Positions 11,230 through 37,092 of a stretch of DNA of 45,001 bases are shown here, piece by piece. The stretch is from Promethearchaeota archaeon. Its GTDB lineage: Archaea > Asgardarchaeota > Lokiarchaeia > Sigyniarchaeales > SOKP01. The notes below the pieces were generated by a model that saw nothing but the letters and a program-made list of their open reading frames with translations, had not been told where the DNA came from and searched no databases. The stretch is from assembly GCA_004524535.1 (NCBI GenBank), contig SDNY01000011.1, positions 1 to 45,001 on the forward strand, in the 5' to 3' direction. The position numbers and the translations under genes are program-made. Position 1 is the first letter of the stretch. Each line of letters opens with the position of its first letter.

Positions 11230-14200
11230 ATGAATCAATCTACAAAAAAAAATAAAAAACGAATATTTATCTTTCTAATTATTTTCGTTGGATTAACCTT
11301 TACTAACATTGCTGCGATTAATCTACTTAGCTTTTCTGGTATACCATCAACCGAAGATGATACAAATGATAATATCATTCAAATAAATGATGATAAACCC
11401 AAATTGGCTGAGTATGAGAGAACGGTTGAAGATACTGGAAATGATATTAATATAACATTACACCAATCGATTAACAATATGGGTGATCCTCTATATGAAA
11501 TTGTCGATTTTAACAGTGTTGCTAACCGAAGCTTTGAAATTGATTCCCCTATAGATACTGATTTTAACTCATCATATACAGAAATAAAAGTTGAGGATAT
11601 TTATGCTCCAAATAAGACATTGGAACTTGAATCAGCTAATTCTGATACTTCTTCTAATCTGGGGTCAGGTAGATGGTTTGGTTCATTTGTAGCCCCTTCA
11701 AATTGCATAATGACAAATGCTTCTTTTTTAATTTCCAATGTATGGAACGGAATTACTATAACAATATATTTAATAAATTCAACAAATACAGGAGAACCGT
11801 ATAATCCATCAGATTTTACTCCTTTCGTAATAGGTAGTTTTAATCCTATTAACTTCGCTGGAAATAGATGGTATAGTGTCGATTTTACTGACCAATTTCT
11901 AAATAATACTTTAACATACGATAATAAGTGGTATATCGGATTAACTAAATCTGTGGGAGCTGGAGGTGAAGATCCATTTTGGATTGCAGGATGGGATTCT
12001 ACTGATAGTATCGATAATTCAGACTCTTACAGATATTCTAGTGGAACTTACACACCCTTCGCTATTGATTATCGTTGCGACATGAAGTTAGTTCCGACAA
12101 GTGAGACTGGATCAATTGATAATAAACCTGCACCTGTAGCAATAAATATGGAAATAAACGGAACTGGAGTTGTAAACGGGGATGAAAATGCTGGAACATG
12201 GTTTAACAATACAGCTTTACCAAGTTCAAATAACCAATTGAATTTTACTCTTGATGCGGGCTGGTGGGATGTGACTTGCAATATTACTATGATTCAAGTC
12301 AATTATACAAAAACCAGCATATGTGGGATTGCTAATTTTACAGTTACAGCAAATCAGCCCGTGGTTCGCTGGAATGTAACAATGAGCGAAGTTTTAGATG
12401 ATTTTGAAGATAAGTTTAAATGTTACTATATTAATTACACAATACCGTCTCATTGGGGTGATGTAGAAGTCTGGAACGGCACCACACAAATGACCAGAAA
12501 TGTAACGAGGTCGTTAGGCACGGGCTATGATGAATTACAGATATTTGAGGCCGGAAATGGTACTAACTGGTTCCTAACGGCAAACAATACGAATCTCCTT
12601 GCTGAATCCTTGGGAGGTATAGTCCATACATATGTTTCTAAAAATGATGTTAGTTTTATCAATTTTACAAATATTGTGGATATAAATATTACTTTAATAC
12701 AAAATATTACTCAAAATAATGGAGAAATTATTACAGATGTATTTGAAAATAATCCACCAGATTATGATGAGAATTATACAAGTGATCGTTCAACATTTGA
12801 AGGAACCAAAGAAATAAATGCGACAATATGGTATGTGAATAGCACGGTTGATGTATATGGACATTTTATCGTACAAGTAGGATGGCTTAACGGCACTGCC
12901 GTTGCTTTTGGAGAGAAGAATATAACAGTTTTAGGAGAGACTGAACTCACAATTGAACCTCTCGCTGTAGATATTTTCGATTCTAATGAAATATTTAATA
13001 TAACAATTAATTCTACTGATATTGGTAAAAAAGAAAAATTTGATCCTGATGAGATAATATATTCTCTTGATGATGGGGTCTCATGGAGTAGTAAAAATAT
13101 AACAGTATTTGCGATTGGACAAGCAAATATTACAATAAACTGTAGTGATGTTAATGGATATGGTCCTCAAACTATTATCATTAATATGAGTAGTCAATAC
13201 TACCATAATCAGTCCGAAACTGTCACTATTACAATTTTAGCCCTTACAGAATTGATTTTCATGGAACCTACTCAGTTTGAATATGATTCAAATGAAGAAT
13301 TCAAGATTTTGTTTGAATATAGAGATAAAATTCGAGATTCACCTGTTAACGCAGACCAAGTTAACTATAGTATTGAGAGTTATAATTGGCGCAATGATAA
13401 TATAGATAATTATGGAGTAGGGTTATATAATATATCGATACTTTGCAATGACTCTGAATTTGATGATTATGGAGAAAAAACTATTTTAGTTCATATAAAT
13501 AGGACTTATTACCATAATCAGACGGTGGAAATAAAAATTAATATTACAGGAGTGACTGATATGTATCTTGTAGGATTTGTACCTCCTTATGTGTATAATT
13601 CTGACGGAAGTTTCGATATTTTCCTCTACTTTAACGATACTTCAAGGAATACAGGAATAGAGGGTGCTACAATTGAATATCGTCTAAATAATACGGGGGC
13701 ACAATTTCGCACAGATAACTGGGTCGATCTTGGAGGGGGTAATTATAGAATAACCGTCTATTGTAATACAAGCGAATTTTATCCCTATGGAGAACCTATA
13801 ATCACTATTCATATCAACAAAACATTTTATATTAACCAGAGTCTTAGTACTTCACCCGGAGATATAACAATAAGAGGAGTGACTGATATGTATCTTGTAG
13901 GATTTGTACCTCCTTATGTGTATAATTCTGACGGAAGTTTCGATATTTTTCTCTACTTTAACGATACAGTAAGAAATACGGGAATAGAGGGTGCTACAAT
14001 TGAATATCGGCTAAATAATACGGGGGCACAATTTCGCACAGATAACTGGGTCGATCTTGGAGGGGGTAATTATAGAATAACCGTCTATTGTAATACAAGC
14101 GAATTTTATCCCTATGGAGAACCTATAATCACTATTCATATCAACAAAACATATTATATTAACCAGAGTCTTAGTACTTCACCCGGTGAAATAACAATAA

Positions 14201-17200
14201 TAGGAGTCACTGAAGCATCGGCTGTTGCAGATCCTTTCAAGCTAGGTTATGAATCAAATGAACTATTCAATGTTACAATCTACTTTAATGATAAAGTGAG
14301 AGATGAGGGTATAACTGATGCCGATCTCGTCGTAGATGTGAATGGAACCCAATATTATCCTTATATTTTTGATAATGGGGATGGATATTACAATATAACA
14401 GTAAATTGTAGCGATCCAATCTTTAGCGGTATGGGATATGGAAACTTTATCTACCGAGTCAATATAAGCAAGCACTATTATGAGAACAAAACGAGAGAAG
14501 TGGAAGTTTATATTGGAGCTGCGACTAATCTTACGTTAGATATATTTCCAATTAAGGCTTCATATGATTCTGGTGAAACATTTAATATTACTGCTTTTTA
14601 TCAAGATGTGGGAACTGGGGATGGGGTTGATGGCGCGGCGATTACGGTCAGAATAAATAATCAAATATATGCACCATTAGACTTCCAAGACTTTCTTGAT
14701 GGATATTACAATATAACTATAGAGTGTAATGCACCCCAGTTTGGTAATTATGGCACTGCAACTGTTAAAATAACAGCCTCCAAGACCAACTACAACCCAT
14801 CAGAAAATATAACAAGTGTCGATGTAATTGGCGAGACCTCCTTTTCTATACAAAAAGTGCCTGATGATCTTTACTATTCCTCAAGTAATACTTTCAATAT
14901 TACAGCATATTTCTATGACATTACTCGGAATCAAGGCATTAACGGCTCATCCATTAGTTTGTATGTAGAGGGAACTGAGTATGATCCACTCGAAATTTTT
15001 GATAATGGAGATGGATATTATTACATAAAAATTAATTGTAGTGCTGATGTATTTAATCCCTATGATAATTTGACAATAAGGGTAAATGCGAGTAAAATAT
15101 ATTATTATAATAAAACAGACACATTAAAAGCGTTTATTGTTGGCAATACTACATTGACTGTGCTTAGCCCATCTGAATATGTTCAAATCGTTCAAGGGAC
15201 AACTTTTAACATAACAGTTAATTTTGAGGATGTTGAGTTAATTACAGGGGTAGCCGGAGCATTTATTAATTATACTCTTAATGGAACAGGTTATCGAATT
15301 GACAAGTGTAACGATAATGGAGATGGAACATATAATATAACAATTGATATAGATGATCCGGATTTTGGAATTTATGGAATTATTAACATAACTATAATTG
15401 CTTCCAAGTATGCATATATAAATCGTTCAATAAACTTTACCATTCATAGGCAAATTCAAACATCGCTAAACCCTCCTGGGACTATCGTGGATTTAGGTAG
15501 TATCTTTAGAAGTCAGCATGTTAATTTTACATTTAACTATTCAGACACTAACTTTAAGCCAATACGTGGTGCTCTTTGGGATATAGTTGAGAATGATGCG
15601 GGATTTACCCCTAATTGGGTAGAACTCGGAGATGGAGAATATAATTTGACCTTAGATTCGACTGGTGTTTTTGCACAAGTAGCTTCTTATAATTTTATTT
15701 TTAATATCTCCGCTATAGGTAATGAAACCCAAGAAATAACATTGATAATAAGGGTTCTCTTACCGAAAACAAGAATAGATTTGGACAACAATATTATTGG
15801 CTTAATAGTTCCTATACGCACGAATATTACTTTAAAGTTCAATTTTACTGATGATCTTAGGAACGAGAGAATTGAATCAATTACAACCGAAAACGTTTCC
15901 ATTGAAATTCTTTCTGGAGCCATATGGAATGATTATAATGAGTCACGTGGAGGCGATCCTAATTTTGCTAATGGAGCATGGGAGTTATTTAATCTCACTA
16001 AAGGACAGTATATTTTAAGAATTTCAACTCTGAACTTAGATAAATTTCAAAGTTATACCATACGAATTACAATTTCATATACTTCAACGAATCCAGGACC
16101 ATATAATGATAGTATAATCGAAATAACCAACTTTTTATATGGCGAACCGATAGATATATCTTCTGATGGAGGCGGTGATGATGGCGGCGTTACGACTGGA
16201 ATTGCGTTCGAAGACCTTTTGCTTTGGATTATAATAATTGCCGCCGCGGTTGGAGGAATAATTGCGATAGTAGGAATCCAAAAAGGCATAATTGCACCTA
16301 AGAAACGAGAAAAGGAAAGAGTTTTACGCGAAGTTACTACGATTTTTGACGATGCTGTTAATTTAGAGCATCTCTTAGTCATTTTCAAGGGAACTGGGAC
16401 TTGCGTTTTCTTTAAGTCATACGGCATGGAGGAAATTGATCCTGAATTAATTAGTGGCTTTCTAACTGCTGTATCTTCCTTTGGACGAGAGATGGATTCA
16501 CAGCAGGCGTTAAACGAAATTCAATACGGAGATAAAATGCTATTATTAGCTGACGGGGAACATGTAAGAGTTGCGCTTGTATTAGATAAACAGGCATCTG
16601 TATTTTTACGTCAACATTTAAAAGAGTTCATAGAAAATTTTGAAGCAATTTACGCAAATAGTTTAATAAATTTTAGAGGTCAAATAGATGTTTTCAGTAA
16701 TGCAGGAGAACATGTTGACAATGTTTTTCAGACTTCAATTATCTTACCTCACGAGATTAGTCCCGATATAGGAAAAATAAAATCTTTGAAAGGCCCCCAT
16801 TCCAAGGATGTACTTAAAATTGCGCGGAGATTGATAAAAGGTTCAGAGAGGAAGTTCTTCTTTATCGCAACGCTTTTAACTGAAGCGATTGAAAGAACAG
16901 ACAAAGATAAAGCGGAAGTTTTTATGGGTATTAAAGAGCTGAGAGACAAGAAAGTTTTATCCCCAATTCAAATTTCAGCCATCGAAGGAAAGGAAGTCTC
17001 ACAGCAAGAATTAAACATGATTCGACAACAGGTTTGTACTTTACCGGGATTATCTGAAGAGGAAATAAATAGACTTGTAAATGACTTAGCCAGAAAGACT
17101 CCCGCAGAAAGAGAAGCTTATCTTGTAAGCTGTAGAGAAAAAGAAGAAATCGTTTCAGCTCCTATTAAAACTACAACAATCGGTGAAAAAGTTATTGATT

Positions 17201-17580
17201 CCCCTAAATCTGCGAAAAAAGAAATTAAAAATTTGAAAAAAGCCGCAAGTGTAAAATTAAAAGAAGGGGATCTTAAAACTACTCTTGAAATTTATAGAAG
17301 CGCAGCTGTAATCGCAACTGATTGGGGTTTACAAAAAGAGGCTGAAAATTTGGAGAACACGACCAGAGTTACGCAAATTAACGGTTTAAATCAATTAAAA
17401 AATATTTTAGAGAAAGAAGCTAAAAAAGCGGAAAAAAACAAGGATTATGCTACCGCAGCTGAGAAGTACAAGAAAGCTTCCAAAACAGCTTCGGAGATTT
17501 TTAAGTTGGGTGTTACTGAAATGTATTCAGAAGTTAAAAAACTGACGAAAAAATCGAATGAATTAGAAAAATTAATTTAA
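11230..17580 (+). CDS. Giant single-pass surface protein with Ig-like repeats and cytosolic longin-like domain
   Basis: A 2116-residue protein. Residues 9-32 form a signal anchor. An N-terminal beta domain (about 130-290) with a jelly-roll-like pattern follows. From about residue 570 to 1640 there are around ten beta-sandwich repeats of about 105 residues, each with a YxSxxxFNIT start, a DNGDGYYNITVNC-like middle and a YGxxxIxI end. They are rich in N-x-S/T sequons, so heavy glycosylation is likely. A transmembrane helix (about 1664-1686) is followed by a basic stop-transfer KKREKER. The cytosolic part has a longin/Roadblock-like domain (about 1700-1820; EIDPELISGFLTAVSSF), also seen in the 150-residue protein at 37204, then a helical region and a TPR/SNAP-like coiled C-terminus. 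The architecture suggests an adhesin or receptor that signals to trafficking or GTPase machinery inside; this is inference. Two repeats (13552-14205) are nearly identical in DNA. Confidence 0.85.
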   Translation: MNQSTKKNKKRIFIFLIIFVGLTFTNIAAINLLSFSGIPSTEDDTNDNIIQINDDKPKLAEYERTVEDTGNDINITLHQSINNMGDPLYEIVDFNSVANRSFEIDSPIDTDFNSSYTEIKVEDIYAPNKTLELESANSDTSSNLGSGRWFGSFVAPSNCIMTNASFLISNVWNGITITIYLINSTNTGEPYNPSDFTPFVIGSFNPINFAGNRWYSVDFTDQFLNNTLTYDNKWYIGLTKSVGAGGEDPFWIAGWDSTDSIDNSDSYRYSSGTYTPFAIDYRCDMKLVPTSETGSIDNKPAPVAINMEINGTGVVNGDENAGTWFNNTALPSSNNQLNFTLDAGWWDVTCNITMIQVNYTKTSICGIANFTVTANQPVVRWNVTMSEVLDDFEDKFKCYYINYTIPSHWGDVEVWNGTTQMTRNVTRSLGTGYDELQIFEAGNGTNWFLTANNTNLLAESLGGIVHTYVSKNDVSFINFTNIVDINITLIQNITQNNGEIITDVFENNPPDYDENYTSDRSTFEGTKEINATIWYVNSTVDVYGHFIVQVGWLNGTAVAFGEKNITVLGETELTIEPLAVDIFDSNEIFNITINSTDIGKKEKFDPDEIIYSLDDGVSWSSKNITVFAIGQANITINCSDVNGYGPQTIIINMSSQYYHNQSETVTITILALTELIFMEPTQFEYDSNEEFKILFEYRDKIRDSPVNADQVNYSIESYNWRNDNIDNYGVGLYNISILCNDSEFDDYGEKTILVHINRTYYHNQTVEIKINITGVTDMYLVGFVPPYVYNSDGSFDIFLYFNDTSRNTGIEGATIEYRLNNTGAQFRTDNWVDLGGGNYRITVYCNTSEFYPYGEPIITIHINKTFYINQSLSTSPGDITIRGVTDMYLVGFVPPYVYNSDGSFDIFLYFNDTVRNTGIEGATIEYRLNNTGAQFRTDNWVDLGGGNYRITVYCNTSEFYPYGEPIITIHINKTYYINQSLSTSPGEITIIGVTEASAVADPFKLGYESNELFNVTIYFNDKVRDEGITDADLVVDVNGTQYYPYIFDNGDGYYNITVNCSDPIFSGMGYGNFIYRVNISKHYYENKTREVEVYIGAATNLTLDIFPIKASYDSGETFNITAFYQDVGTGDGVDGAAITVRINNQIYAPLDFQDFLDGYYNITIECNAPQFGNYGTATVKITASKTNYNPSENITSVDVIGETSFSIQKVPDDLYYSSSNTFNITAYFYDITRNQGINGSSISLYVEGTEYDPLEIFDNGDGYYYIKINCSADVFNPYDNLTIRVNASKIYYYNKTDTLKAFIVGNTTLTVLSPSEYVQIVQGTTFNITVNFEDVELITGVAGAFINYTLNGTGYRIDKCNDNGDGTYNITIDIDDPDFGIYGIINITIIASKYAYINRSINFTIHRQIQTSLNPPGTIVDLGSIFRSQHVNFTFNYSDTNFKPIRGALWDIVENDAGFTPNWVELGDGEYNLTLDSTGVFAQVASYNFIFNISAIGNETQEITLIIRVLLPKTRIDLDNNIIGLIVPIRTNITLKFNFTDDLRNERIESITTENVSIEILSGAIWNDYNESRGGDPNFANGAWELFNLTKGQYILRISTLNLDKFQSYTIRITISYTSTNPGPYNDSIIEITNFLYGEPIDISSDGGGDDGGVTTGIAFEDLLLWIIIIAAAVGGIIAIVGIQKGIIAPKKREKERVLREVTTIFDDAVNLEHLLVIFKGTGTCVFFKSYGMEEIDPELISGFLTAVSSFGREMDSQQALNEIQYGDKMLLLADGEHVRVALVLDKQASVFLRQHLKEFIENFEAIYANSLINFRGQIDVFSNAGEHVDNVFQTSIILPHEISPDIGKIKSLKGPHSKDVLKIARRLIKGSERKFFFIATLLTEAIERTDKDKAEVFMGIKELRDKKVLSPIQISAIEGKEVSQQELNMIRQQVCTLPGLSEEEINRLVNDLARKTPAEREAYLVSCREKEEIVSAPIKTTTIGEKVIDSPKSAKKEIKNLKKAASVKLKEGDLKTTLEIYRSAAVIATDWGLQKEAENLENTTRVTQINGLNQLKNILEKEAKKAEKNKDYATAAEKYKKASKTASEIFKLGVTEMYSEVKKLTKKSNELEKLI
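13552..14205 (+). repeat. Recent 327-bp tandem duplication inside the giant gene
   Basis: Two in-frame copies, 13552-13878 and 13879-14205, each encode a 109-residue Ig-like unit starting VTDMYLVGFVPPYV. They differ at only about a dozen bases, such as cgtctaaat/cggctaaat and acattttat/acatattat. The other repeats of the protein are diverged, so this duplication is recent. Confidence 0.9.
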
Positions 17581-26159: not shown

Positions 26160-27221
26160 TTAATAGATTGGAGTTTTAAAAATAAAAATAATTATAATAT
26201 ATGATAAAAATACTCCAATAAATGACAAATAAAACGTCAGCAGATGATTATTTACTATTATTTTTTTTTTTAAAAATTTTAAATTCAATTTAAACCTAAA
26301 AAATTCTCTCTCCTTTAAAATTCCATAAAAAATTATAGATTGAAACCATCTTAAATATGGCCAGCTGAAAAATAAATAAGTACCGAGCGCAATCATTGAA
26401 ATTATGATTATTTCAAAAATATCAGAATTTTTTAATCTAAATAAAAGAAATAAAATAAATATACATATAAAAGGAATTAATCTTATATATATAGGCACAT
26501 AAGAACCTCTCTCATTCCACTCTGCTAATGATTGATAATAGTAAGGTAAGTAAAAAAGGGGTAAAACTATAAAAATGAAAATTAATAACGGGATAATGGT
26601 AAGAGAGATTTTTAAATCTTTCCAGTCTTTTTCATATAGAAATTTAATAAATAGAAATCCTATTGCTGGTATGGTATAAAACTTAATACACATTGATAAA
26701 CCTAAAAAGAGATAAAATAGATATCTCGCATAGATCTCTTTTTTTGGGTAAAATATCAATGCTAATAATAAAAAGAAGAAGAAGAAAGAATCTGTAATAT
26801 GATATCCGCAATTTTCTAAGCTAAAGGAATTATTTAGAAACCAAAACGGATTTAGCAAAAATAAAGCAAATGCATATTTTGTATTATTAATGTTAAAACT
26901 CTTTAAAACGAAATAAAACATCAAACATATCAATAGATCCCAAAAAAAAGCCCAAAAAGCAAAAATTTCAATACTTCTAAAAGATAAAAACACAAATACC
27001 AAAATAAAAATTTGAGTCAGTATCGGATAACCTCCCCATTGCTTAGAATAATTTAATTGAACATCTCCCCAAGATTTTTGAGGATTTAACATATGGATAT
27101 AATAATAATAAAATAACATAATTATTCTTGCCATAATACCTAAAAAAATAAAGATTAAAGCCTTTTTGGCAAAAATTTTATCCAAAATTCTTTTTTCTTC
27201 TATAACAACTTCATTTTCCAT
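26160..27221 (-). CDS. Multi-pass membrane protein, possible GT-C glycosyltransferase, copy A
   Basis: A 353-residue protein of about nine to ten hydrophobic helices, very rich in Phe, Ile and Tyr. The topology (cytosolic N-terminus, first helix, then a polar loop with SWGDVQLNYSKQWGGYP) resembles polyprenyl-phosphate-sugar-dependent GT-C transferases such as PIG-M or GT87 types. The acidic residues of that loop could be catalytic. I cannot name a family firmly. It is a tandem paralogue of the 349-residue protein at 27402, with a repeat unit of about 1242 bp including the upstream spacer with its cttataaag TATA-like box. A likely job is sugar addition outside the cell, fed by the GT2 enzyme at 22499; this is inference. 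Confidence 0.75.
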   Translation of the reverse strand: MENEVVIEEKRILDKIFAKKALIFIFLGIMARIIMLFYYYYIHMLNPQKSWGDVQLNYSKQWGGYPILTQIFILVFVFLSFRSIEIFAFWAFFWDLLICLMFYFVLKSFNINNTKYAFALFLLNPFWFLNNSFSLENCGYHITDSFFFFFLLLALIFYPKKEIYARYLFYLFLGLSMCIKFYTIPAIGFLFIKFLYEKDWKDLKISLTIIPLLIFIFIVLPLFYLPYYYQSLAEWNERGSYVPIYIRLIPFICIFILFLLFRLKNSDIFEIIIISMIALGTYLFFSWPYLRWFQSIIFYGILKEREFFRFKLNLKFLKKKIIVNNHLLTFYLSFIGVFLSYIIIIFIFKTPIY

Positions 27222-27401
27222 AAATATTCACCATAAAGAACATCTTATAAAGTTTTTTTTAATTGAGAATTTATCCTAAATTAAATTTACTAAAGAAAAT
27301 TCTGTATTTATTTTAACAAATTTAATTTATTAAATCTAATGAAAAAAATTCTGAATTAGAAGTATAAAAAAAAAATCTCATTAAATTAATAGCTTGAAGT
27401 T

Positions 27402-28451
27402 TTATAAATAAAAAATAATAATTAAAATTGAGTAAAAGACTCCAATAAATGACAAGTAAAAAGTCAATAGATGATTATTTACAATTATTTCTCTCTTTAT
27501 AACTCCTAAATTCAATTTAAACCTAAAAAATTCTCTCTCCTTTAAAATTCCGTAAAATATTATAGATTGAAACCATCTTAAAAATGGCCAACTAAAAAAG
27601 AGGTAAGTACCGAACGCAACCATTGAAATTATTATTGTTTCAAAAACATCAGACTTTTCTAATCTATATACAATAAATAAAGTAAATATACATATAAAAG
27701 GAAATGCTCTTATAAATCTTGGCACATAAGAACCTTTTAAATTCCATATTGCTAATGCTACATAATGATAAGGTAAGTAAAAAAGTGGTAAAACTATCAA
27801 TACTATCAATAGTGGGACGATGAGAATTCCCATTATTTTTAATTCTTCCCAGTTTTTTTCATATAGAAATTTAATAAATAGAAATCCTATTGCTGGGATA
27901 GTGTAGTATTTTATACACATTGATAATCCTAAAAAGATGTAAAACAAATATCTAGCATAACGCTCTTTTCTTGGATAATATATCAATGCCAGGAAAAAAA
28001 AGAACAAAAAGAATGATTCTGTAATATGATATCCACAACCCTCTAAGCTAAAAATATTGATAAAAAATAATAATGGATTGATTAAAAAAAACCCAAAAGC
28101 ATAACCTTTATTTTTAATATTAAAACTTCTTATAACAAAATAGAACATCAAACATGTCAACAATTCCCAAAAAAAAGCCCAAAAAACAAAAACTTCAAAC
28201 CTTCTAAAAGATAAAAACACAAATACATCAATAAAAATTTTACTCACCAAAGGATAATGCTCACTGGATTCATGATGATAATTTCTATAAACATCTCCCC
28301 AAGATATATAAGGATTTAACAGATGAATGTAATAATAAAAAAAAAGAATGAATACTCTTGCTGTAATACCTAGAAAAATGAAGATTAAAGCCTTTATGGC
28401 ATAAATTTTATCCAAACCTTTTTTTTCTTCTATACTAACCTCATTTTCCAT
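27402..28451 (-). CDS. Multi-pass membrane protein, possible GT-C glycosyltransferase, copy B
   Basis: A 349-residue paralogue of the preceding protein with the same start (MENEV, IEEK, LDKI), the same first-loop motif SWGDVYRNYHHES, and long matching blocks such as LYEKNWEELK and FLRWFQSIIFYGILKEREFF. The copies differ most in the first polar loop (QWGGYPILTQ against SSEHYPLVSK), where acceptor recognition would be expected, so they may have diverged in specificity. Each has its own almost identical upstream region (cataaatattcacca then cttataaag), so they are probably transcribed separately from duplicated promoters. The GT-C assignment is by topology only. Confidence 0.75.
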   Translation of the reverse strand: MENEVSIEEKKGLDKIYAIKALIFIFLGITARVFILFFYYYIHLLNPYISWGDVYRNYHHESSEHYPLVSKIFIDVFVFLSFRRFEVFVFWAFFWELLTCLMFYFVIRSFNIKNKGYAFGFFLINPLLFFINIFSLEGCGYHITESFFLFFFFLALIYYPRKERYARYLFYIFLGLSMCIKYYTIPAIGFLFIKFLYEKNWEELKIMGILIVPLLIVLIVLPLFYLPYHYVALAIWNLKGSYVPRFIRAFPFICIFTLFIVYRLEKSDVFETIIISMVAFGTYLFFSWPFLRWFQSIIFYGILKEREFFRFKLNLGVIKREIIVNNHLLTFYLSFIGVFYSILIIIFYL

Positions 28452-29891: not shown

Positions 29892-31649
29892 TTATTTAAA
29901 GATTTTCACTCCACGTTTTTCTAATTTATCTAATGAGTCTGGGATTTTAATTATGTTATTTTTTTCTAAATTAAGATATTTAAGTGATGAAAGCGACTTT
30001 ATCGACTCTGGCAAGGTTTTCAAGGTGTTAGCTCTTAAAAATAAATATTTGAGAGACGAGAGAGAACCAATAGTCTTTGGAAGTTCCATTAAATTATTAT
30101 TACCTAAATATAAATATTTTAAAGATTGGAGTGACCCTATTGAGTCTGGGATTTTTTCTAATTTATTATAATAACAGTATAAATATTTCAGTGCAGTAAG
30201 GGATCCAATTGAATCAGGAATCTTTATTAGATGGTTCTTTCCTAAATCTAATATTTCAAGTGTAAAGAGAGAACCCATTGAATCAGGTATAGTTTCTAAT
30301 TTATTAAATCCTAAGATTAAAGTTTTTAATTTATGAAGAGATCCTAATGATGCTGTTAGAGTGGTTAATCTATTACTTGATAAATCTAGTTCTTTTAAAG
30401 AAGATAACTGTCCGATTGATTCTGGGAGCATTGTAATATTGTTTTTACTCAAATCTAAGATTTCTAAGGAAGATAGTGATCCTATCGATTTCGGTAACTC
30501 CTTTAACAAATTATCATATAAATCAAGTTCTCTGAGTGAAGTAAGCAACCCAATTGATTCAGGAAGCGTTTCCAGATGATTAAGACCAAGTTTTAATTCT
30601 TCAAGTGAAATCATTTTTCCTATTGACTCTGGAAGATTCTTTAAATCATTTCTCTGCAAATTTAATCGCTTCAGGGAATCTAATCCTCCTATTGTTTCTG
30701 GAAGTGATCTTAATTTATTATTATGGATGTCTAATCTCACTAATGATTTTAAATTGCCTATGGATTCAGGTAATTCAGTTAAATAATTAGATGATAAACT
30801 TATATTCTCTATAGATGAAAGTGAACCTATAGTCTTTGGAATAGATTTTAGCTTATTTTCCATCAAACCTAAATATTTAAGGTTGCTAAGAGCTCCTATT
30901 GATTCTGGTAAAGTTTCTATATTATTTCCTTTTAAAAACAAAGCCGTTAAAGAGGTTAATGAACCTATCGATTTAAAAATAGATTTTAAATTATTATTTC
31001 TAATATTGAGTCTTTTTAGTGATTTTAATGAACCAATAGATTCAGGTAAAGTTGATAATTCATTATTTCCTAAATACAATATTTCTAATGAAAAAAGAGC
31101 ATTGATGGATGTTTTAAAAATTTCAAGTTTATTTCCACTTAAATCTAGTGTTTTTAAATTTGATAAATTGTTTAGAGATGAGGGAATATCTTTTAATTTA
31201 TTCTCACTTAAATCCAAGAATTCTAAAGAAGAGATAGATCCTAAAGATTCTGGTAAACATACTAAATTATTCGATTCAAGGTGTAATTCCTTTAAGGAAG
31301 AAAGATTACCTATTGATTCAGTCAATTCTGATAATTGATTCTCACTAAAATCTAAAATTTCAAGAGAATCGAATGAAAAAAATTCATCAGGGACATTCTC
31401 TAAATTATTTCCTCTTAAATATAACTCTTTAAGAAAACTCAAAGAAAATATTGATTTTGGAATAGATGTTAACCCACAAGAAAAAAGTCCTAATCCAGAG
31501 ATATGACCTTCATGAGTAAAAAAACCAATATTATAATATTGTAGTTCAGTAAGTTCAGGTAAAGGTGATCCAATTATTTTTTCTAAAACTCCAATTACTT
31601 CTTTTTCTTCCACTGGAATTAAATCTTCAGAACTTCTTTCTTCTGGCAT
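29892..31649 (-). CDS. Leucine-rich-repeat protein with about 23 repeats
   Basis: A 585-residue protein made almost wholly of 23-residue leucine-rich repeats with the consensus LKxLxLxxNxLxxLPESIGSLSS. I count about 23 units from residue 52 to the C-terminus. A short N-terminal cap precedes them (residues 1-50, acidic, with VIGVLEKIIGSPLPELTELQ). There is no signal peptide and no membrane segment, so it is cytosolic. The LPxSIGxLxxL type is the SHOC2/Ras-group class, common in eukaryotes, where it binds Ras-like GTPases. In Asgard genomes LRR proteins are often found with small GTPases, but none is adjacent here. The regularity (IGSLSS recurring many times) points to growth by internal duplication. 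Confidence 0.93.
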   Translation of the reverse strand: MPEERSSEDLIPVEEKEVIGVLEKIIGSPLPELTELQYYNIGFFTHEGHISGLGLFSCGLTSIPKSIFSLSFLKELYLRGNNLENVPDEFFSFDSLEILDFSENQLSELTESIGNLSSLKELHLESNNLVCLPESLGSISSLEFLDLSENKLKDIPSSLNNLSNLKTLDLSGNKLEIFKTSINALFSLEILYLGNNELSTLPESIGSLKSLKRLNIRNNNLKSIFKSIGSLTSLTALFLKGNNIETLPESIGALSNLKYLGLMENKLKSIPKTIGSLSSIENISLSSNYLTELPESIGNLKSLVRLDIHNNKLRSLPETIGGLDSLKRLNLQRNDLKNLPESIGKMISLEELKLGLNHLETLPESIGLLTSLRELDLYDNLLKELPKSIGSLSSLEILDLSKNNITMLPESIGQLSSLKELDLSSNRLTTLTASLGSLHKLKTLILGFNKLETIPDSMGSLFTLEILDLGKNHLIKIPDSIGSLTALKYLYCYYNKLEKIPDSIGSLQSLKYLYLGNNNLMELPKTIGSLSSLKYLFLRANTLKTLPESIKSLSSLKYLNLEKNNIIKIPDSLDKLEKRGVKIFK

Positions 31650-32641: not shown

Positions 32642-33037
32642 ATGTCTAAAGAGCCCAATATTGATGATTTAAAATCCAAAATAGATTTCGGAATAAAAAT
32701 ATGGTTAGAATTTAAGGAAGGTGATAAAAAAAAGAATATCTTGGGCTCTGGATGGGCAAAACTTTTAGAAAGTTTAGATAAAACCGTGAGCGGATCATTA
32801 ATTCAAGCTGCTGAAGAGTGTGGATATTCGTATAAATATGCTTGGAATATTTTAAAGCGCATTGAAAAAAGAACAGGATTCTCACCCGTAGAGACACGCA
32901 AAGGAGGTCGTGGAGGAGGGGGTTATGTCGAATTAAATGAATGGGGGAAATATCTTTTAAAAACTTACAATAATTTACTATTTGAACTTGAAAAAATAGA
33001 AAAAAAACTTGGAGAAACTTTTAAAATTAATGAATAA
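32642..33037 (+). CDS. ModE-like winged-helix transcriptional regulator
   Basis: A 131-residue DNA-binding protein matching the N-terminal domain of the molybdate regulator ModE (LysR-type winged helix). The helix-turn-helix lies in SLIQAAEECGYSYKYAWNIL, followed by KRIEKRTGFSPVETRKGGRG (wing) and GYVELNEWGKYLLKTYN. The molybdate-binding MOP domain is absent, as in many archaeal homologues, so the ligand is unknown. The stand-alone form is usually a molybdate- or tungstate-linked regulator. No transport genes are adjacent. It is divergent from the MBL hydrolase gene. Confidence 0.88.
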   Translation: MSKEPNIDDLKSKIDFGIKIWLEFKEGDKKKNILGSGWAKLLESLDKTVSGSLIQAAEECGYSYKYAWNILKRIEKRTGFSPVETRKGGRGGGGYVELNEWGKYLLKTYNNLLFELEKIEKKLGETFKINE

Positions 33038-33332: not shown

Positions 33333-34817
33333 ATGGCTTTACCGCTTCCAGGAACACCAGTTATAATTGATATCGGTAGTGCTTATGTTAAATTAGGTTT
33401 TGCTGGTGAACCTACACCTCGTTTTGTTTTTCCTTGTATTGTTGGTACCGAAAAATATAGAGCAGTAATGGTTGATGTTGGTGGTCAAAGGAATTATTAC
33501 GTTGGAAATGATGCTATGAAAATGAGAGGCGTCCTTAAAGTAAAATATCCTATACAGAGAGGCGCTATTATGGATTGGGAAGCGTACTACGAGATTTTAA
33601 ACTATATTTTTTATACTTTACTTAGAATAGAAAATCTTTCAAATTATCCCATAATTTATGCTGAGCATCCTTTTGTACCAAAAGAAACTAAAGAATTTAT
33701 AGCAAGAGTTTTGTTCGAAACGCATAAAATTAATTCTTTAATAATGTTGCAATCCCCATTTTTATCATTGTTTTCCGTTGGATTGACAACAGGATTGGTA
33801 ATTGAGAGTGGTGACGGGCTAACTTGGATTGTTCCAATCGTCAATGGGGTGATCCAACATCAAGCAATCCAAAAGTTAAATCTTGCTGGAATAGATGTAA
33901 ATCACAATTTAAGAACATTAATGATGAGAGAAGGAATTAATATTGAATCTTCAGCAGCAGAAGAAATATTAAAAGAGATAAAAGAAAAAAACTGCTATTT
34001 TGTATTAGATCCTAATAAGCCTCCAAGTTCGCAAGGTTCCTACAGTTTTCCAATGCCTGATGGCTCAGTTAAACAAATTCCAAGTAATGTTTTGCATGAA
34101 GCTCCTGAGGTGATGTTTCAACCTGGTATGTTAGGTTATAATATAATGAATATCCCCCAAGCGATAATATATTGTTTACAGATGATGGATAAAGCCTATT
34201 GGAATGATTTATTATCACACATTGTACTTTCAGGTGGAAACCTGTCTTATAGCGGATTTGAAGAACGATTAAAACAAGAATTAGGAGCACTTTTACCTCA
34301 ATTAGGCCCTATTCCTAAACCTCAAGTTCAGCAAACTCCTATTAGTAGCCAAGAAACTAAACTTGAAGCAATTAAAGTAAGAGAAAAAACAAAGGACACA
34401 TGTCCTGAATGTGGAGAATTAGTGGACTTATCTGATGGAAAAGAATCCTGTCCTAATTGTGGAGCGAGTATGAAATTGCCACAAGTATCCATAGATATAG
34501 GAAAGTCAGTTGATAAGAAATCGAAGAAATGTCCCCATTGTAATAAGAAAATTATTGATTCAACATCCGTCTTTTGCCCATTCTGTGGAAAAGGAATTGC
34601 TGATAACTTTACTAGTGTGAAGGAGTTTACAGATGTCTCAGATTCAGATGAGATAATTAAATTTTTTATTCCTGATAATCTTCAATATTCTATTTTTAAT
34701 GGATCCGCAATACTTGGAAGCCTTCCTAGCTTTCAGAATCTATTCGTTACATACGACGAATTTCAAGGTAATCCAAATGCCTTATACAGAGAGATTTCTG
34801 ATGTTTTTAAGTTATAA
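33333..34817 (+). CDS. Actin-family protein with a double zinc-ribbon insertion
   Basis: A 494-residue actin superfamily protein. Phosphate-1 is VIIDIGSAYVKLGFAGEP, phosphate-2 VIESGDGLTWIVPIVNG, the adenosine motif IVLSGGNLSYSGFEERL, and the C-terminus YSIFNGSAILGSLPSFQNLF matches actin's Y-S-V-W-I-G-G-S-I-L-A-S-L. Asgard actins assemble into filaments, and this may be a related Arp-type protein. Between the adenosine motif and the last motif, where actin has about 30 residues, there are about 100 extra with two zinc ribbons: C357/C360/C373/C376 and C400/C403/C415/C418. The actin His in SGDGVTH is Trp here, while the active-site Gln (LIMLQSPFLSLF) is kept with one extra residue after it, so nucleotide hydrolysis may differ. 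There is no signal or membrane segment, so it is cytosolic. Confidence 0.93.
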   Translation: MALPLPGTPVIIDIGSAYVKLGFAGEPTPRFVFPCIVGTEKYRAVMVDVGGQRNYYVGNDAMKMRGVLKVKYPIQRGAIMDWEAYYEILNYIFYTLLRIENLSNYPIIYAEHPFVPKETKEFIARVLFETHKINSLIMLQSPFLSLFSVGLTTGLVIESGDGLTWIVPIVNGVIQHQAIQKLNLAGIDVNHNLRTLMMREGINIESSAAEEILKEIKEKNCYFVLDPNKPPSSQGSYSFPMPDGSVKQIPSNVLHEAPEVMFQPGMLGYNIMNIPQAIIYCLQMMDKAYWNDLLSHIVLSGGNLSYSGFEERLKQELGALLPQLGPIPKPQVQQTPISSQETKLEAIKVREKTKDTCPECGELVDLSDGKESCPNCGASMKLPQVSIDIGKSVDKKSKKCPHCNKKIIDSTSVFCPFCGKGIADNFTSVKEFTDVSDSDEIIKFFIPDNLQYSIFNGSAILGSLPSFQNLFVTYDEFQGNPNALYREISDVFKL

Positions 34818-34948: not shown

Positions 34949-36106
34949 TTGAAAATATCGAAAATTCGATTATTAACAATTTTTATGTTATTCCTTGTGA
35001 TCTCTTTGAGTTTATCACCATTCGCATTAGCAAAAACACGAAAAACGTATTTATCTGATTTTCTCTTAGATAATTTTATCGATGATGAAGGTTTTTCAAA
35101 CTGCAATAGAGAAGATTATCGTGATGATAGTAATGAGGTCTCATACGAAGCAACCGCTTATGCTTTAGAAATTCTTGGAAAATATAATATGTTAGAAGAA
35201 AAAGATCTGTTTGGAAAAGTTGAAAAGAGATATAATTCTTCAGATCTTCAAGACGATTTAGAAGAACACCTTAACTCCATGTATACGTCTGGTATTAAAG
35301 ATATATATGATACATATTATATCTTAAAATCTTTAGAAGAAATGGACGAAGAAATAGATTCAACTTTGGCCCTTCGAATTAAATTATATCTCGATGGTGC
35401 TGCCCAGAGTAATGGAGGTTTTGCTGCTACAGATACTTCTACATCAGCTACTCTAATTTCAACCTATTTTGCGTTACAAATTTATGACTTAATAGATCAA
35501 CCTCTCCCAGATCCAAGGGGTTTTGTCTTGTCGTGTGGTAATCCTGATGATCCTGATGGGGGATATGGAGGTGAACCTGAATCTTCCTCAACTATCGCCA
35601 ATACTTTTTATGCTATTTTAATCATGGATTTCTTAGATGATTTCGATGCTTTAATCTCAGAAAGTTTGACGATTAGTTATCTTAATTCGTTTTATATAGA
35701 TGATGAGGAAGATGAAGATAATTACGGGGGATATTTACCTGATCAAAATGCTAAATATGCATTAATTAGTAGTACTTACTATTGTCTAAAAGCCATTTCT
35801 TTACTCGATAAAGATGAAATAGAAGATGAAGATGCTACTTCAGAATGGCTTTTAGATCGACAGAATTTCCAAGACGGAGGTTTTGTTGATCAAAGTGAAG
35901 GATACGAACAAAAATATTCTTCAGTAATTAGTACTTATTTTGCCCAAGAAGCGTTAGATTTACTAGGTAAGGAAGATTTATTAGAAGAGAAGGTGTTCAT
36001 GCTGGAGTGGGAATGGTACGATTTTTTAATATTCTTTATTATCTTGATTGCTCTTATCACATTGGGAATAATAGGTCTTTATATTAGGCGAAAGAGAAGA
36101 CTATAA
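34949..36106 (+). CDS. Secreted membrane-anchored alpha/alpha-toroid (prenyltransferase-like) protein
   Basis: A 385-residue protein. A signal peptide (about 1-29, ending SPFALA) is followed by an alpha/alpha toroid of the prenyltransferase/squalene-cyclase/TED superfamily, with repeated Gly-rich turns each followed by a Ser/Thr-rich helix: NGGFAATDTSTSATLISTYF, GGYGGEPESSSTIANTFYAI, YGGYLPD and QDGGFVDQSEGYEQKYSSVI. A C-terminal helix (about 355-378) and a basic RRKRRL end anchor it, with the toroid outside. It lacks the Asp/Cys/His zinc site of protein prenyltransferase beta subunits and no thioester CGEQ is seen, so it is probably a binding domain. The TTG start at 34949 gives the best signal peptide. 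Its last codons are repeated just downstream. Confidence 0.83.
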   Translation: MKISKIRLLTIFMLFLVISLSLSPFALAKTRKTYLSDFLLDNFIDDEGFSNCNREDYRDDSNEVSYEATAYALEILGKYNMLEEKDLFGKVEKRYNSSDLQDDLEEHLNSMYTSGIKDIYDTYYILKSLEEMDEEIDSTLALRIKLYLDGAAQSNGGFAATDTSTSATLISTYFALQIYDLIDQPLPDPRGFVLSCGNPDDPDGGYGGEPESSSTIANTFYAILIMDFLDDFDALISESLTISYLNSFYIDDEEDEDNYGGYLPDQNAKYALISSTYYCLKAISLLDKDEIEDEDATSEWLLDRQNFQDGGFVDQSEGYEQKYSSVISTYFAQEALDLLGKEDLLEEKVFMLEWEWYDFLIFFIILIALITLGIIGLYIRRKRRL

Positions 36107-36213: not shown

Positions 36214-36231
36214 CATAGCGATTTGGTAATA

Positions 36232-37092
36232 ATGGGAAAAATTCTCGATGGAAGGAAACTGGCAAATCAATTGAATTTAAAATTAAAAAATGAAATTCTT
36301 GGAGTCATAAAAAGGACAAAGATTAAGCCAAAATTAGCCACAATCTTGGTTGGAGAAGATCCAGCATCAAAAATATATGTGAATATTAAACATAAAACAT
36401 GTACTCAAGTTGGGATTGACTCATCTCAAGTTAATCTGAGTGGAGATATAAACAAGACAGAATTATTTAATGAAATAGAAAAATTAAATCAAGATGCAAC
36501 TATTCATGGGATATTATTACAATTGCCTCTCCCCTTGAAAATTCGAGACTTTACCCCTCAATTTCTTGAAAAAATTTCACCAATTAAAGATGTAGATGGT
36601 TTTCATCCTATAAATAGAGGTAAACTCTTTGATTATAACGAAGAATTAGCCCCGTGTACCCCTAAAGGCATAATCGCACTATTAGAACATTATAATGTCG
36701 AAATAAAAGGAAAAGATGTAACCATAATTAATCGGTCCAATCTTGTAGGGAAACCATTGATTTTTATGCTTTTAAAAAGAAATGCTACACCGACTATATG
36801 CCATACATCTACTAAAGACTTAGACCGCTGTATAAAACAGGCGGATATTTTAGTAGTCGCTGTAAGCCGGCCAAACTTTATTACTAAAGAAAAGATTAAA
36901 GAGGGTGTAATAATAATTGATGTCGGAACCAATAGGGTAGAAGGTAAATTATGTGGAGATGTAGATTTTGAAGATGTATTAGAAAAAGTTAGTATGATTA
37001 CGCCAGTTCCAGGTGGTGTTGGTCCGATGACTGTAAGTTATTTGCTTCGAAATACTTTCAATGCGTTTAAAAAACAAATAAATATAAATTAA
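36232..37092 (+). CDS. folD: Bifunctional methylenetetrahydrofolate dehydrogenase/cyclohydrolase FolD
   Basis: A 286-residue FolD from the ATG at 36232 (the TTG at 36223 would add three residues). It interconverts methylene-, methenyl- and formyl-tetrahydrofolate. The catalytic domain has LATILVGEDPASKIYVNIKH with the conserved Lys that follows the Tyr, ILLQLPLP, and KDVDGFHPINRGKL. The Rossmann domain has VTIINRSNLVGKPL, ATPTICHTST, and the end VDFEDVLEKVSMITPVPGGVGPMT. The length is normal. In Lokiarchaeia this enzyme belongs to the folate-dependent methyl branch and to purine synthesis; most methanogens use methanopterin instead. It has no evident operon partner. Confidence 0.95.
   Translation: MGKILDGRKLANQLNLKLKNEILGVIKRTKIKPKLATILVGEDPASKIYVNIKHKTCTQVGIDSSQVNLSGDINKTELFNEIEKLNQDATIHGILLQLPLPLKIRDFTPQFLEKISPIKDVDGFHPINRGKLFDYNEELAPCTPKGIIALLEHYNVEIKGKDVTIINRSNLVGKPLIFMLLKRNATPTICHTSTKDLDRCIKQADILVVAVSRPNFITKEKIKEGVIIIDVGTNRVEGKLCGDVDFEDVLEKVSMITPVPGGVGPMTVSYLLRNTFNAFKKQININ

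Follow-up and report, generated by a model that had tools for sequence, protein, structure and literature searches.

Asgard archaea are the archaea closest to eukaryotes, and in cultured Lokiarchaea the protrusions are filled with lokiactin filaments. Apart from profilins and gelsolins, the factors that start, stop or anchor these filaments are, to our knowledge, poorly known. The stretch of DNA analysed here (45,001 nucleotides from a Promethearchaeota archaeon, hereafter the window) encodes an actin-family protein that, according to an earlier note on the sequence, carries two zinc ribbons before its last actin motif. This raises the question of what such a protein, hereafter ZR-actin (zinc-ribbon actin-related protein), may do in a cell that also possesses lokiactin. 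The gene, its parts and its neighbours are as follows.

32642-33037, + strand: ModE-like winged-helix regulator lacking the molybdate-binding domain, first gene of the cluster (TIGR00637, 9e-15, below its cut-off)
33333-34817, + strand: ZR-actin, 494 aa (ORF; Pfam Actin, 2e-70; 58 distinct orthologues)
33333-34301, + strand: ZR-actin core part 1, residues 1-323, with subdomains 1, 2 and 4, most of 3 and the nucleotide site (PDB sequence and fold match to actin; alignment to actin numbering)
33753-33755, + strand: Ser141 at the position of actin Gln137 (Thr, Ser or Ala in 58/58 orthologues)
33804-33827, + strand: P2 loop with Glu158 (actin Asp154) and Trp165 (actin His161) (residue comparison)
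34302-34652, + strand: insert, residues 324-440, interrupting subdomain 3 between actin 323 and 327 (alignment; model pLDDT)
34398-34466, + strand: zinc ribbon 1, residues 356-378, with C357, C360, C373 and C376 (Pfam; invariant in 30 representatives)
34524-34592, + strand: zinc ribbon 2, residues 398-420, with C400, C403, C415 and C418 (Pfam; absent only in family f4)
34653-34814, + strand: ZR-actin core part 2, residues 441-494, with the last strand and helices and the barbed cleft (second actin match; model)
34949-36106, + strand: toroid protein with signal peptide, extracellular alpha/alpha toroid, C-terminal TM and short basic tail (PF00432; model)
36223-37092, + strand: FolD, methylene-THF dehydrogenase/cyclohydrolase (PF02882, 7e-66)

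The ZR-actin reading frame (33333-34817, + strand) starts with ATG and contains no internal stop. Pfam recognizes Actin over residues 9-322 (2e-70), and the closest sequence match among solved structures is the HC1 actin 9wc4 (E 3.9e-72). The C-terminus of actin aligns separately to a second stretch, residues 442-480, indicating that ZR-actin is a single protein with an insert and not an end fusion. In actin numbering, residue 323 of ZR-actin corresponds to actin 323 and residue 442 to actin 327, which leaves an insert of approximately 117 residues (324-440), slightly more than the roughly 100 extra residues given in the earlier note. Positions 34401-34586 run from codon 357 (Cys) to codon 418 (Cys) and hold four CxxC motifs (at 357, 373, 400 and 415), two knuckles per ribbon. 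Three Pfam ribbon models, Zn_ribbon_3, Zn_Ribbon_1 and Double zinc ribbon, match residues 356-378 and 398-420, with 34.4 bits for PF13248 (cut-off 27) and 29.1 bits for PF12773 (cut-off 27.3), and the ribbons probably bind zinc. PF12773, the Double zinc ribbon domain, likewise consists of two C-x2-C...C-x2-C ribbons, which in ZR-actin are placed inside an actin fold on flexible linkers.

The structure of the ZR-actin polypeptide by itself was predicted with AlphaFold2 from a shallow alignment of 30 orthologues (mean pLDDT 75). The model superimposes on G-actin with a Z score of 40.5 (349 residues, 2.5 Å), in agreement with Foldseek, and its residues 7-488 span actin 5-374, so that both halves of actin are present in one continuous core rather than an unrelated fused product. 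The pLDDT is mostly 85-94 in subdomains 1 and 3, 57-70 in subdomain 4 and about 70-76 in the ribbons, and falls below 50 in the linkers 333-350, 383-396 and 425-437. In F-actin, residues 322-325 of subdomain 3 touch residues 243-245 of the adjacent subunit (PMC7247010). This contact loop, uninterrupted in conventional actin, is broken by the insert in ZR-actin, so that the ribbons, held by flexible arms, project from a longitudinal contact of the filament. Thus, the predicted metal-binding module is located on subdomain 3 at the barbed side, where the earlier note had placed it.

Because the window derives from one draft MAG (198 contigs, contamination 4.4%), an artefact, either an unrelated fused gene or a mis-assembly, was considered. 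This explanation is refuted on two counts: 58 distinct proteins share the architecture, their source MAGs being numerous and independent, with the single-contig genomes G037, G039 and G066 among them, and the C-terminal actin part continues in frame after the insert. Its probability is practically nil. In a profile search against 227 Asgard genomes, all high scores (at least 512 bits) came from one Lokiarchaeal order, families f1-f4, and the next-ranked scores (at most 370 bits) belong to plain actins. No orthologue was found outside this order among the 227 genomes, and the named records with ZR-actin are Candidatus Lokiarchaeota. Within the order, ZR-actin is present in 69 of 79 genomes, and one more (G072, L154) has its C-terminal part, including a ribbon, at the edge of a contig. 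The CxxC spacing is preserved across all 58 proteins. In a set of 30 diverse orthologues, ribbon 1 has its four Cys in every sequence and the Cys of ribbon 2 show a conservation of at least 90%, more than chance would give; ribbon 2 is absent only from family f4 (L055-L058). In most pairs purifying selection is stronger on the ribbons than on the linkers, a comparison of few pairs with some saturated synonymous counts. When about 85,000 genomes of bacteria and archaea were scanned, within the limits of what six peptide patterns can detect, the architecture was found in Lokiarchaeota only, the one further match being an unrelated zinc ribbon from a Bacillota contig. Long actin homologues of other Asgard classes (open frames of 484-861 aa) are extended in other ways and lack a double zinc ribbon. 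A viral origin was rejected, as no relative was present among the viral contigs searched.

Several other unusual actin-family genes were seen during these searches. Two proteins of 775 and 853 aa from other families of the same class (L138:2580-4907 and L139:1452-4013) are distinct from ZR-actin and have long C-terminal extensions with repeated F-x-K/R-I/L-D-like motifs. An actin-family protein from another Asgard class (L143:1730-3181) has a CxxC motif in an N-terminal extension, and genome G163 contains a tandem pair of short, diverged actin-family genes (L144:1471-3630).

ZR-actin resembles lokiactin (UYP47028.1 of Ca. Lokiarchaeum ossiferum) in its actin fold and in having a similar D-loop and PDG loop, and is about 38% identical over residues 9-323 to the lokiactin of its own genome. 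Lokiactin differs in that it has no insert, keeps Gln137, Asp154 and His161, is found in every Asgard class and forms filaments. A tree built from 71 core sequences, with actin and HC1 actin but no eukaryotic Arps among them, splits the ZR-actins from all other actins, lokiactin included, with a support of 100. Besides ZR-actin, the source genome encodes three further actin-family genes, one of which is a separate lokiactin.

The earlier note had described all actin nucleotide motifs as present, which holds for ATP binding and fails for catalysis. The actin core does possess a nucleotide site: D11, G13, K18, G156, G158, G182, E214, G301 and G302 of the P1, P2 and adenosine loops (actin numbering) are retained in 58/58 ZR-actins. 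At the catalytic positions, Gln137 is replaced by Thr, Ser or Ala in 58/58 and Asp154 by Glu in 55/58, and His161 is absent in 56/58, Trp being its usual replacement in f1. All 58 have Arg in place of His73. In the window, the three catalytic positions are Ser141, Glu158 and Trp165. The Trp at the catalytic-site His had thus been recognized correctly, while the losses of Gln137 and Asp154 had gone unnoticed. All of these nucleotide-site residues, including Gln137, Asp154, His161 and His73, are retained in the sampled lokiactins. ATP hydrolysis by actin is driven by Gln137 and His161 (PMC10062479). With the binding residues kept and Gln137, Asp154 and His161 lost, ZR-actin is predicted to bind ATP with little or no hydrolysis.

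By its sequence, ZR-actin belongs to the Actin superfamily (PF00022) and, within it, to the ARP class, having an actin fold with altered catalysis and altered filament interfaces. Judged by analogy, its nearest functional parallel is the eukaryotic nuclear pair Arp4 and Arp8, which bind ATP with altered catalytic residues, carry insertions on filament faces and cap the barbed end of actin (PMC3510490, PMC6167448). Arp8 has Glu for Gln137, Ser for His161 and Arg for His73, the last shared with ZR-actin (58/58). The insertions of Arp4 and Arp8 are elsewhere (D-loop, hydrophobic plug, small subdomain-3 helix), and no zinc ribbon is described in them. Taken with the insertion point and the order-wide conservation, the loss of the hydrolysis residues supports the view of the earlier note that ZR-actin has a specialised role rather than that of a plain filament actin; among the roles it had listed, adaptor, cap or nucleator, the first two fit best and the third is disfavoured, as judged from the filament faces.

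These faces were defined as residue sets from PMC7247010 and general knowledge of F-actin contacts, and their similarity to lokiactin was ranked against shifted residue sets of the same shape. The pointed face of f1 ZR-actins is more similar to lokiactin than 96% of the shifted sets (62% in f2-4), whereas the subdomain-3 barbed face exceeds only 8% (f1) and 4% (f2-4), all of these being ranks among overlapping sets and not p-values. The controls are reversed, for it is the pointed face that ranks with the most diverged sets in other Asgard ARPs, in the second paralogue and in eukaryotic actin. Within the ZR-actin family, the variability of the subdomain-3 barbed face is above that of 98% of the shifted sets, whereas in lokiactin it is ordinary, and the barbed cleft between subdomains 1 and 3 is among the most conserved surfaces. 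The D-loop and the PDG loop (subdomain 4) resemble those of lokiactin. The subdomain-3 contact residues 166-173 and 283-294 are degenerate, Tyr169 and Asp288 being lost and Arg290 replaced by Trp in all f1 ZR-actins.

A lokiactin-like pointed face combined with a variable barbed face favours docking on the barbed end of a filament with no successor subunit. We therefore tentatively prefer, at somewhat less than even probability, a reading in which ZR-actin, holding ATP without hydrolysing it, acts on lokiactin as a barbed-end cap or adaptor and recruits a partner through its ribbons. The Lokiarchaeales-specific ZR-actin would bind ATP, most likely without hydrolysing it at the rate of actin, and would stay in one nucleotide state. 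Through its lokiactin-like pointed face (D-loop and PDG loop) it would attach to a lokiactin filament at the barbed end, and the degenerate subdomain-3 barbed face, with linkers and ribbons emerging at the 322-325 loop, would block the next lokiactin from adding. Through the one or two ribbons, acting as a docking module, a partner would be connected to the capped end or to a sequestered lokiactin. Three points speak against a cap: the pointed-face signal is weaker in f2-4 (62nd percentile), the conserved cleft between subdomains 1 and 3 may still accept a D-loop or another protein, and blocking is not obligatory for an insert on flexible linkers.

The same surfaces bear on other roles within or near the filament. 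ZR-actin might co-polymerise with lokiactin as an alternative subunit and decorate the filament with ribbons on flexible arms, as the conserved D-loop, PDG loop and barbed cleft would allow, the linkers having sufficient length to bulge away from the contact, but the degenerate residues 166-173 and 283-294, with the changes at Tyr169, Asp288 and Arg290, and the position of the insert at a longitudinal contact make this a rather improbable reading. Nucleation in the manner of Arp2/3, with a new filament templated on the barbed face, would be in keeping with the conserved barbed cleft; it is disfavoured because the would-be template, the subdomain-3 barbed face, varies more than any other surface and bears the insert, and no Arp2/Arp3-like pairing was seen, so that we regard it as very improbable. 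Away from filament ends, ZR-actin may be a monomeric adaptor, an ATP-stabilised actin-fold scaffold within a complex, similar to nuclear Arps, with ribbons that bind protein or nucleic acid. Retention of ATP binding despite the lost hydrolysis residues, the flexible insert and the fact that nuclear Arps with similar losses are complex subunits all suit this role, yet it leaves unexplained why a lokiactin-like pointed face and D-loop were retained when other Asgard ARPs lost them. It is a possibility worth keeping, at perhaps one chance in a few. The cap or adaptor of lokiactin thus remains favoured over a filament subunit or a nucleator, with the reserve expressed above.

What the ribbons might recruit is suggested by the gene neighbourhood. 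ZR-actin lies in a conserved gene cluster, reported here as new, in the order ModE-like regulator, ZR-actin, single-pass membrane toroid protein and FolD. The ModE-like gene is found upstream of ZR-actin at the same place and on the same strand in f1 and f2 (genome G009 lacks both), and FolD lies downstream of the toroid gene in f1, f2 and f3. The toroid gene directly follows ZR-actin on the same strand, mostly at a distance of 74-440 nt and at 2.2 kb in one case; 38 distinct proteins of 360-395 aa were collected. Between f1 and f2 or f4, two to four genes of the cluster remain in order at 24-52% identity, while neither lokiactin, the protein of which is 90% identical in f2, nor the second paralogue has a syntenic neighbour in these comparisons.

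PF00432 was detected in 27/27 toroid partners, and the toroid model (pLDDT 87) matches RabGGTase beta with a Z score of 28. The alpha/alpha toroid is shared with the beta subunit of protein prenyltransferases, whereas the partner is secreted and membrane-anchored and lacks the zinc triad. Across the 27 sequences no Cys or His column reaches 90%, and the conserved Asp-Cys-His zinc ligands are thus missing; a prenyltransferase activity is therefore unlikely. The cytoplasmic tail comprises about 6-8 residues. With toroid matches stronger than 1e-60, both genes are present in 68 of the 79 genomes (the G072 edge fragment counted) and neither in 8, while ZR-actin occurs alone in 2 and a toroid fragment alone, at a contig edge, in 1. 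This co-occurrence is supportive only, because adjacent genes share assembly gaps. Among the loci read in other Asgard classes (L155-L163), toroid membrane proteins are mostly beside a thioredoxin-reductase-like gene and not beside actin, suggesting that the actin link is specific to the order with ZR-actin.

Other features were observed at these loci. Several other Asgard classes also have toroid proteins with the topology of the partner, and 3 of the 27 toroid partners show a weak match to the Pfam Ribophorin_II N-terminal domain (E at most 0.01). In genome G020 (L064:7231-8733), ZR-actin is present and a multi-pass membrane protein replaces the toroid gene. Elsewhere in the window are a 585-residue leucine-rich-repeat protein (29892-31649), which has a counterpart near ZR-actin in the closest relative alone (L035, L080); a pair of neighbouring multi-pass membrane proteins of 353 and 349 aa (26160-28451), very similar to each other, without Pfam match and apparently a tandem duplication; and a 2116-residue ORF (11230-17580), also without Pfam match, with hydrophobic segments at the N-terminus and at 1653-1690.

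The cluster can be read without actin filaments, ZR-actin being a cytoplasmic ATP-switch or partner of the toroid protein in surface sensing or secretion. The order of regulator, ZR-actin and toroid gene, held at low identity while lokiactin neighbours are not, and the joint loss and gain of ZR-actin and toroid gene are consistent with this, but a pointed face like that of lokiactin suggests an actin partner, the cytoplasmic tail of the toroid protein is very short and two genomes have ZR-actin without a toroid match, and we consider such a role unlikely. If ZR-actin is instead a cap or adaptor of lokiactin, the genetic linkage would make the toroid membrane protein the first candidate for the membrane end of the link. 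Against this connection stand the short cytoplasmic tail and the homologues beside thioredoxin reductase in other Asgard classes. A complete transmembrane actin link, with the toroid outside, ZR-actin capping lokiactin ends inside and the ribbons coupling the two, is accordingly a speculative proposal to which we give a small probability. If true, contact at the surface would set where actin filaments end in Lokiarchaeal cells.

A cultured relative offers a point of comparison. Ca. L. ossiferum has four actin homologues, lokiactin and three ARPs (UYP44711.1, UYP44126.1 and UYP47647.1), all of which were tested for transcription by RT-qPCR, with lokiactin the highest (PMC9834061). In the parts of that paper drawn on here, the ARPs are treated by a tree and RT-qPCR, and zinc ribbons, catalytic residues and gene neighbours are not mentioned. 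No description of the zinc ribbons of ZR-actin was found in the open literature on Asgard actin. The published qPCR primers (PMC9834061) were matched approximately to actin genes. The lokiactin primers fit lokiactin, the UYP44126.1 primers fit the second paralogue, and the UYP44711.1 primers fit best on the ZR-actin of G066, with 12 mismatches over 40 bases, an amplicon of 359 against 371 and the primer peptides LPDIAQ and DSVDPA. On this best fit, UYP44711.1 is tentatively taken as the likely orthologue of ZR-actin.

ZR-actin looks like a specialised end-piece or adaptor of the archaeal actin skeleton, and as a cap or adaptor it would be an archaeal counterpart of the capping or adaptor Arps. 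Together, ZR-actin and the toroid gene make actin-membrane attachment in Asgard archaea testable in a cultured strain. Moreover, the family suggests that the diversification of ARPs through loss of hydrolysis and insertion into a filament face is not only a eukaryotic invention.
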